DNA of 34,698 bases from Bacteroidota bacterium (GTDB taxonomy: Bacteria > Bacteroidota > Bacteroidia > Bacteroidales > PUMT01). The stretch covers positions 90,685-125,382 of the forward strand of contig PUMT01000231.1 in assembly GCA_003551495.1 (NCBI GenBank), written 5' to 3'. Under the pieces are notes generated by a model, which was not told where the DNA came from, ran no database searches, and saw nothing but the letters and a program-made list of their open reading frames with translations. Below are positions 1-27,227 of the stretch, piece by piece (position 1 is the stretch's first letter; each line of letters begins with the position of its first letter). The translations under genes were made by a program, and so were the position numbers.

Positions 1-118
1 CGGGCATTGAGACCTCAAAGTCTCCTGAGAACAGCCATTGATTTACAACGATCTCTTCTGTAGCGGCAAACCTGCCAGCGCAAACAAAAATCAGAGATAA
101 AACAATTATTCGTTTCAT
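1..118 (-). CDS. N-terminal fragment of a predicted secreted protein (truncated by window edge)
   Basis: Reverse complement reads MKRIIVLSLIFVCAGRFAATEEIVVNQWLFSGDFEVSMP... with a signal-peptide-like N-terminus and no stop before the window edge; start codon at 116-118. Confidence 0.6.
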   Translation of the reverse strand, partial: MKRIIVLSLIFVCAGRFAATEEIVVNQWLFSGDFEVSMP

Positions 119-130
119 ACACGTATTATT

Positions 131-175
131 TTTATTAAGTAATTGGCCTTATGCATCTTACCATGACAATATTTT
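131..175 (-). repeat. 45-bp dispersed element, copy 1 (upstream of the partial secreted-protein CDS)
   Basis: TTTATTAAGTAATTGGCCTTATGCATCTTACCATGACAATATTTT matches 26974-27018 at 43 of 45 positions. Confidence 0.85.
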
Positions 176-417
176 GACTTTCGGTCGATTTTACATGTAA
201 ATTATATGCGCTTCATGCATTACACGTATGATTAAAAATTGCCGGATTTATAATTTATCCTGCAATAGCCTTCAAGTTACAATTTTTTTATTGATTCGAA
301 ACTGTTTGGTATTGCTATCAATGACGCTTTTATGCAATGCAATCATTATAACCCTTGATATGCAGGTTGGAAACTAATTTCAATTACATTAATTTCGAAA
401 GTCAAATAGTAATTGCA

Positions 418-25010: not shown

Positions 25011-26021
25011 TTATTTTTTATTTACTCCGTTGTATGACCACTTAAGGTACATTGCTCCCCATGTAAATCCTGCACCGAATGTTGCAAGTATTATATTATC
25101 ACCCTTTTTCAGTCTTGGCTCCCATTCCCAGAGGCATAACGGCAGGGTGGCTGCAGTAGTGTTCCCGTATTTCTGAATGTTTATCATAACCTGATCCTTA
25201 CTAATACCCATTCTTTTCGCCACAGCCTCAATTATACGCATATTTGCCTGATGTGGTACAAGCCAGGCGAGCTCTTCGGATTTGATGTTGTGCTTCTTCA
25301 TCATCTCCACAGAAGTGTCGGCCATTTTTGAAACGGCAAATTTAAAAACAGATTGTCCTTCCTGGTAAATGAAATGTTCCCGGGCATCTATTGTTTCATG
25401 GGAAGCAGGTTTTGCTGAACCTCCGGCTTTCATGTGCAGGTGCTTTTTTCCTGAACCGTCGGATTCGAGAATATGGTCAATAATGCCTGTATCTCCATCT
25501 TTGGAAGGTTCAACCAAAACAGCTCCGGCTGCATCACCAAAAAGCGGACATGTTGCACGGTCTGTATAATCAGTAATGGAAGACATTTTTTCTGCACCTA
25601 CAACGACTATTTTTTTGCATGTTTCTGATTCAATAAGCTTGCTTGCCACAGTAAGCGCATAAAGAAATCCTGAACAGGCGGCATTCAGATCGTAGCTGAA
25701 AGCATTTTTTATTCCGGCCTTATCGCATATAATGTTTGCGGTAGCCGGGAACTGCATGTCAGGGGTTACGGTAGCACAAATCAGCATGTCAACTTCTTCA
25801 GGCGATGTGCCTGTTTTATTTAGCAGCTTTTCCACAGCAATAGCACCAAGATGGGATGACCCTTTCCCGTTCTCCTTTAGTATTCTTCTTTCTTTTATGC
25901 CTACCCTGGTCATAATCCACTCATCGCTGGTGTCAACCATTTGGCTTAATTCTTCATTTGTTAGTATATATTCGGGATAATATGCATCAATCCCGGTTAT
26001 TGCTGCTTTTTTCTTAGTCAT
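25011..26021 (-). CDS. fabH: 3-oxoacyl-ACP synthase III
   Basis: [30 protein letters not shown] (active-site Cys), [30 protein letters not shown]. Confidence 0.97.
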
Positions 26022-26962
26022 TATTCAAAAACTTCTTTAAATTTCTCGGTTAGTTTAGCATCAGTAAAAACTTTTGTATTTATTATCATATTTTTTATTG
26101 CTATGGCATTGGATACACCATGACCAATAATTACCGGCTTGTTTATCCCGAGAATGGGTGTTCCGCCGTAATTAACAAAGTTGAAACGTTCAAAAAACTC
26201 GTCTTCAACCTTTCTGGATTTCAATAGATTGTAAAATGCTTCAGCTTCCTTTAAAATAACATTTCCTACAAATCCGTCACAAACAATAACATCTGCCTTT
26301 TCATTGCTGAAGAGGTCATTTCCCTCAACGTTACCGGTAAAACTAAAGTCTTTTGTCCCCTTCATGAGATCATGGGTGCTTTTGGTAAGCAGATTCCCCT
26401 TTTCCTCTTCAGATCCTATGTTTAGTAGCCCCACCCTGGGGTTGTCAATTTTAAATATATATTTAGAGTACAGAGATCCGATAATTCCGTATTGGTATAG
26501 TACATCCGGACGGCAGTCTGGATTTATTCCAACATCAAGTAAAAGGGTTGAAGTGCCTGTAAGTGAGGGTATTTCTGCTGAAATTGTGGGGCGAATGATA
26601 CCGGGGATAGACTTAATGACAAACATTGACCCGGCCATCATGGCACCTGTATTCCCTGCGCTTGCAAATGCATCAATATGTCCTGCTTTCAGTAATCCGA
26701 AACCTTTTACAATACTTGAATCAGGTTTATTGGAAAAGGCTTTGGCCGGATTTTCACCCATCTCAATAACTTCGGTAGTATGTACAATCTCAAATGAAGA
26801 TGGATCAAAGCCCTCTTCACCGGTGAGCTCAACTATCTTTTCCCTGTCACCTATTAAAACTATACCTGTATCATCAGGCAGTTCTTTTCTGGCCATTATT
26901 GCACCTGCTACAGTTGTTTTAGGGGCAAAATCGCCGCCCATTACATCCAATGCTATTTTCAT
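26021..26962 (-). CDS. plsX: phosphate acyltransferase PlsX
   Basis: [74 protein letters not shown]. Confidence 0.97.
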
Positions 26963-26973
26963 AAGAAAATATA

Positions 26974-27018
26974 TTTATTAAGTTATTGGCCTTATGTATC
27001 TTACCATGACAATATTTT
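26974..27018 (-). repeat. 45-bp dispersed element, copy 2 (upstream of plsX)
   Basis: TTTATTAAGTTATTGGCCTTATGTATCTTACCATGACAATATTTT; 43/45 match to 131-175. Confidence 0.85.
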
Positions 27019-27056
27019 CATTGAATTTTGTGAAGATATTGAAAATATCGTCATGG
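27004..27056. repeat. inverted repeat / hairpin in the rpmF-plsX intergenic region
   Basis: CCATGACAATATTTTCA ... TGAAAATATCGTCATGG: 17-bp arms, one mismatch, 19-nt loop. Confidence 0.8.
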
Positions 27057-27227
27057 ACGATTCATGAGAATTGTTCAGTTTTTATACAATAATTTCAACC
27101 GGCTGCCTGAAGCAGCATTATTTTTTCAAAAAATAGAGTTACCCGAAAGCGATACACTGCTTTATAAAATTAAGCGTTGTCAGGAATGCAATAGTTATAA
27201 ACTGATATACAAGTTAATGCGAAATAT

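Follow-up and report, generated by a model that had tools for sequence, protein, structure and literature searches.

The plsX and left-edge loci carry two copies of a longer repeat

The window analysed here, a 34,698-nucleotide stretch of a Bacteroidales MAG (G000; 2.9 Mb in 275 contigs), contains plsX on the minus strand (26,021–26,962; PF02504, E = 3e-87) and, running off its left edge, the start of a 497-aa secreted protein (1–118, minus strand; weak PD40/DPPIV_N matches). The original prediction described a near-identical 45-bp element upstream of both genes. As it stated, 26,974–27,018 and 131–175 differ at 2 of 45 positions, the minus-strand gap is 11 nt to the plsX ATG (26,960–26,962) and 12 nt to the ATG at 116–118, and both copies read ATG GTA AGA TRC ATA AGG CCA ATW ACT TAA TAA on the minus strand. 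A 21-nt core occurs at these two sites only within the window (0 expected; 100 shuffles), and the match at 43 of 45 positions is real and beyond chance. An Rfam search of the window returned a tRNA as its sole match.

The 45-bp stretch is merely the left end of a longer repeat unit, whose extent the prediction had missed. The plsX-side copy (26,958–27,065, plus strand) is a complete short form that matches our covariance model at 126.9 bits and has an empty site in G001, a genome of the same genus as G000. It measures 108 bp with both TTCAT ends, and the inserted DNA comprises 26,963–27,065. The left TTCAT (26,958–26,962, plus strand) is the host target, antisense of the plsX start ATG-AA and found once in the G001 empty site; the right TTCAT (27,061–27,065, plus strand) is the element's own 3′ end, which almost every copy whose right end is intact has conserved. 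Between them lie an internal guide, CTTATGTATC (26,991–27,000, plus strand), supported by covariation at column pairs 6-36, 42-105 and 5-37, and a central palindrome with 17-nt arms that are 94% complementary (27,004–27,020 and 27,040–27,056, plus strand). The second copy (114–240, plus strand) is a long form of ~173 bp cut after ~126 nt, with 126 nt aligned to the long-form consensus and a model match of 32.3 bits. Its right end is lost and its left end is partly changed, and its left TTCAT (114–118) is antisense of the neighbouring gene's start codon.

Copy number, size classes and distribution

A genome search of G000 with the plsX-side copy returned 46 matches, of which ~25 were clear, showing that the repeat is dispersed. 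Copies from G000 and its family fall into two size classes, ~106 nt and ~165–173 nt, that have both ends in common and differ in the middle segment; on the plus strand the unit reads TTCAT followed by AAGAAAATATTTTTATTAAGTWATTGGCCTTATGTATCTTACCATGACAATATTTT...GATATTGAAAATATCGTCATGGACGATTCAT. DNA searches found it in 14 of 15 genomes searched of the same family, one by weak match only, and gave weak hits only among order mates outside the family. With the covariance model, the element was found in 7 of 247 genomes sampled across the order; the matches include eight copies in G166, which belongs to a second family (f42), and single copies in G029 and in G145 (f15). The exact right end also occurs in named records, which are Bacteroidales/Bacteroidetes MAGs carrying sediment sample codes; judging from the record names, these sediments would be those of soda lakes. 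No viral contigs carrying the element were found.

Some copies within G000, and likewise within G006, are identical or nearly identical to each other, showing that activity was recent. In addition, many G006 copies sit within ~15 bp of contig ends (C64, C75, C133, C137, C161). Short-read assemblies therefore probably break at the repeat, and its true copy number is likely higher.

Precise empty sites in a sister species

The element is precisely inserted at two sites. In G001, plsX is preceded by a single ATGAA and the element is absent: the empty site reads ...AACTGAACATCACTC joined directly to ATGAAAATAGC, and the filled G000 site reads ...AACTGAACAATTCTC, the element (ATGAATCGTCC...TTTTCTT), and then ATGAAAATAGC. 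The exbB/tolQ locus behaves in the same way, with ...TTTACTAACCATAATCTGCACAA joined to ATGAACTA in G001 and ...TTTATTAACCATAATTAACACAG, the element and ATGAACTA at the filled site. The element was also absent from the remaining readable plsX starts in the family. Because of these precise empty sites before ATGAA at plsX and exbB/tolQ, we regard the repeat as a non-autonomous mobile element and not as an inherited leader. A leader insertion common to G001 and G014 (L055/L111) was left out of the evidence because its flanks are nearly identical, so that misbinning or transfer is possible. The lpxA start carries the element in G009 and G015 (L068, L096), and other readable lpxA leaders of the family are without it.

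Many copies abut start codons

Read in antisense, the terminal TTCAT gives ATGAA, and in 42 of 80 scorable copies the start codon of an ORF abuts the element exactly; a copy was counted if the ORF beginning at that ATG had 90 aa or more, or 50 aa or more where it stayed open to the DNA edge. Across 378 kb of G000, we counted 83 TTCAT sites coinciding with called starts, 1405 within called genes and 214 in other places. Among the sites where an insertion would spare every gene, starts therefore make up 27.9%, a baseline built on a rough ORF call. The observed fraction exceeds this 28% baseline (p = 3e-6) as well as one of 35% (p = 0.001). Target choice combined with removal of harmful insertions explains much of the pattern, with perhaps a two-fold excess remaining. 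Genes preceded by the element in G000 include plsX, dnaN and dut, assigned by Pfam, and exbB/tolQ, a leucyl aminopeptidase and a lipoprotein, assigned by sequence reading.

These counts bear on the reading that the repeat is dispersed with no preference for target or start, and that the proximity of both window copies to starts is coincidental. Such a reading would accommodate the 22 of 54 full copies that lie away from any ORF start, but it is at odds with the excess of copies exactly at starts, with a left edge that is always TTCAT, and with the clean empty sites; we disfavour it as very improbable indeed.

A host motif, TTCATnCGtATAAAgTATAGTTA, recurs just upstream of ATGAA starts with or without the element. 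Many copies have it in their right flank (e.g. L048, L086, L114), and it occurs element-free at L003, L022 and L115; it looks like a promoter very close to the start codon.

An internal segment pairs and covaries with both junctions

In the plsX-side copy, the internal CTTATG pairs with the left junction CATAAG (26,960–26,965), and the internal ATGTATC pairs with the right end GATTCAT (27,059–27,065). Put generally, one internal segment provides two helices, CTNATG with CATNAG at the left junction and ATGNAYC with GRTTCAT at the right end. Guide and junctions covary: column pair 6-36 is A-U in 23 copies, C-G in 8 and G-C in 1, and column pair 42-105 is U-A in 25 and C-G in 7, with 0 unpaired in either case. 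The covariation extends to one base of the host target, as host-side target base 5 and guide base 37 form U-A in 23 copies and C-G in 4, with 0 unpaired, when copies of other families are included. All of these counts cover related copies and not independent events, and the evidence for a changed target base comes from four copies.

The window's family combines TTCAT with an ATG guide, and two other families combine TTCAC with a GTG guide. Copies with a GTG guide have TTCAC as their left site and keep TTTCAT or TATCAT at the right (four copies; family f42 and G029). Since left and right differ in these copies, the flanks did not arise by ordinary target duplication; the window's family, with TTCAT at both flanks, is by itself undecisive on this point. 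In two of the four TTCAC copies the GTG begins an ORF, of 256 aa in one and 305 aa in the other; the remaining two open only 28 and 19 codons.

Because both helices use the ATG, a linear molecule can form just one of them at a time; at a circle junction, the two would be continuous. The internal CTNATGNATC is almost the complement of GATTCATNAG, the sequence formed when right and left ends are joined.

The mini-ORF and the leader RNA

Once inserted, the element becomes part of the gene's 5′ leader, and its minus strand includes a 9-codon mini-ORF (MVRYIRPIT, stop; 26,978–27,007 in the plsX-side copy). The original prediction had offered three alternatives: a 5′-leader regulatory element, a translation-coupled mini-ORF and a small element targeting start regions. 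The last of these agrees with the empty sites and with the 42 of 80 copies at starts. The mini-ORF fared poorly: codons 4, 8 and 9 vary non-synonymously, at the second position, and substitutions are not mainly synonymous, as would be expected of a leader peptide. In family f42, two paired positions alter the peptide (AGA to AGT, ATA to ACA) with pairing kept. As the changes follow pairing and not codons, the mini-ORF looks incidental, and conservation does not lie in the peptide. The second in-frame stop, although present in both window copies, is a local feature, occurring in 5 of 32 distinct aligned copies. The prediction would have reduced the element to a simple dispersed repeat if copies lacked a preferred position and substitutions ignored the mini-ORF frame; substitutions do ignore the frame, but position is preferred. 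We also considered a coupled chain of MNRP, a 17-aa and a 9-aa peptide, which overlap exactly in 28 copies, and rejected it because neither the long forms nor several of the short ones keep the chain unbroken.

A related reading is that the element is a domesticated 5′ leader or translation-control RNA, kept because its hairpin or mini-ORF regulates genes. Its placement between the promoter side and the start codon of essential genes would fit this, as would the folding of the sense RNA, which is better than that of shuffles (z = -4.6), and the mini-ORF length, which is kept in most copies. However, plsX and exbB/tolQ of the sister species manage without the element, the downstream genes are functionally unrelated, and substitutions track pairing. 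Left-end-only remnants, considered as candidate domesticated leaders, were rejected as such because they show no enrichment at starts relative to full copies (p = 0.62). We therefore consider regulatory domestication improbable and favour a mobile element.

Comparison with known systems

Classical MITEs are bounded by terminal inverted repeats that are related to those of a transposon, and their insertion often causes target duplications. The element resembles them in its full and internally shortened sizes, its non-coding nature and its dispersal near genes, but shows neither terminal inverted repeats nor target duplication. Further counterparts are the PATEs (palindrome-associated transposable elements) of Haloquadratum walsbyi (PMC3119063), which were reported to be mobile in a strain with all IS200-type genes disrupted (PMC3119063). 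As in PATEs, there are near-terminal palindromes and no terminal inverted repeats, the ends AAGAAAATA... and ...GGACGA-TTCAT not being inverted copies of each other; the element is too short for a transposase (106–173 nt), is mobile as judged from the empty sites, and makes no ordinary target duplication. The likeness extends to copies shortened by internal deletion, to insertions specific to a strain, and to activity that was reported where no intact tnpA exists (PMC3119063). In contrast to PATEs, the short form uses one palindrome and one guide for both ends, the target is TTCAT or TTCAC on start codons, the hosts are Bacteroidales and not haloarchaea, and no IS605-type element linked to it by sequence was found, the Y1 genes found in the family having other ends.

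For IS608 and ISDra2, guides and targets have been described (PMC5934647, PMC2806898). With these, the element shares insertion 3′ of a fixed 4–5 nt target retained at the left flank, a terminus formed by its own right cleavage site, and a guide 5′ of a palindrome that pairs with the cleavage sites, in a geometry that differs in detail. It differs in having neither tnpA nor tnpB, in a guide pairing longer than the described tetranucleotide guides, and in the use of one segment for both junctions. REP/RAYT systems and the CGTC-tagged REPs, which lack a dedicated transposase, are likewise short dispersed palindromes, Bacteroidetes included, and Bacteroidetes Y1 subclass 2.6 is structurally atypical (PMC3733652, PMC6006769). 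Unlike REPs, the element measures 106–173 nt against 20–40 bp, has no GTAG at the palindrome foot, has a defined target and empty sites, and sits at start codons, whereas REPs lie downstream of genes.

Search for a mobilizing enzyme

No transposase with matching ends was found in the genomes examined. The Y1 transposase (PF01797) had no match in G000, G001, G005 and G006, all incomplete MAGs with many copies each, and Y1 genes elsewhere in the family have ends unrelated to the element. A Y2 search (PF04986) gave no match, but as its control genomes were likewise without one, this result is uninformative. No autonomous copy with both ends further apart was present in the loci examined or evident among the G006 hits. 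IS110-type genes (PF02371) occur in G000 and G006, but were rejected as a source since their flanks are unlike the element. In five family genomes, C-terminal Y1 transposase fragments are followed by a CCCACAAGCTAAAAAGACTTGTGGG hairpin, several of them at contig starts (L076–L080); this is a different IS200/IS605-type element.

A candidate mechanism

Together, fixed-target insertion on the 3′ side, the absence of terminal inverted repeats and guide pairing are traits of IS608 and ISDra2, and from these we infer single-strand transposition in trans; the chemistry, a circular intermediate and the type of enzyme are all deduced. We thus judge it likely that the repeat is a non-autonomous, PATE-like mobile element that inserts at start codons through trans-supplied single-strand transposition directed by its internal guide. 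A single-strand DNA transposase acting in trans would excise and insert the folded plus strand, with the guide CTNATGNAYC just 5′ of the palindrome pairing with CATNAG, whose boundary falls between CAT and NAG, at the left or target junction and with GRTTCAT at the right end. Insertion takes place immediately 3′ of TTCAT, and the element ends in its own TTCAT; because TTCAT is the antisense of ATGAA, insertion before an ATG-AA gene does not disrupt the coding sequence, and selection would purge most intragenic insertions and leave many at start codons.

The same mobile element might instead be moved by another recombinase, not of the Y1/HUH type, for instance through a double-stranded or folded circle junction in which GATTCATNAG recombines with TTCAT. 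The near-complementarity of the internal CTNATGNATC to the joined ends would suit such a route, as would the failure to find a Y1 enzyme in the four copy-rich genomes and the IS110-type genes in G000 and G006. Yet no copy was found with a linked recombinase, the IS110-type flanks do not resemble the element, and the guide-target rule closely matches IS200/IS605, which makes this route rather unlikely.

More tentatively than for single-strand transposition itself, we propose jointly that the guide is matched to the start codon itself (CTN-ATG facing ATGAA in antisense), letting the element enter without harm between leader and coding sequence, that TTCAC retargeting in other families, compatible with GTG starts, arose naturally through a matching guide change, and that the mover is possibly not a Y1 enzyme; we hold this combination to be possible but doubtful. 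If true, it would represent natural retargeting of a transposon by guide-target pairing, thus far engineered in IS608, and a parasite that, by targeting start codons in antisense, has a simple way to spread without breaking genes. The plsX and exbB/tolQ leaders, rewritten in one species and not in its sister, would then offer a direct test of how bacteria tolerate a sudden change of leader.

A second palindromic repeat, AACCCGCATGGTTTGTTCATGTTATTTTGTCTGCCAAAGGCTGATGCGGGTTTCAT together with variants that have other complementary arms, likewise ends in TTCAT (L103:50–130, L082, L100, L105, L177). At L105, the start-codon element lies directly 3′ of this TTCAT end.
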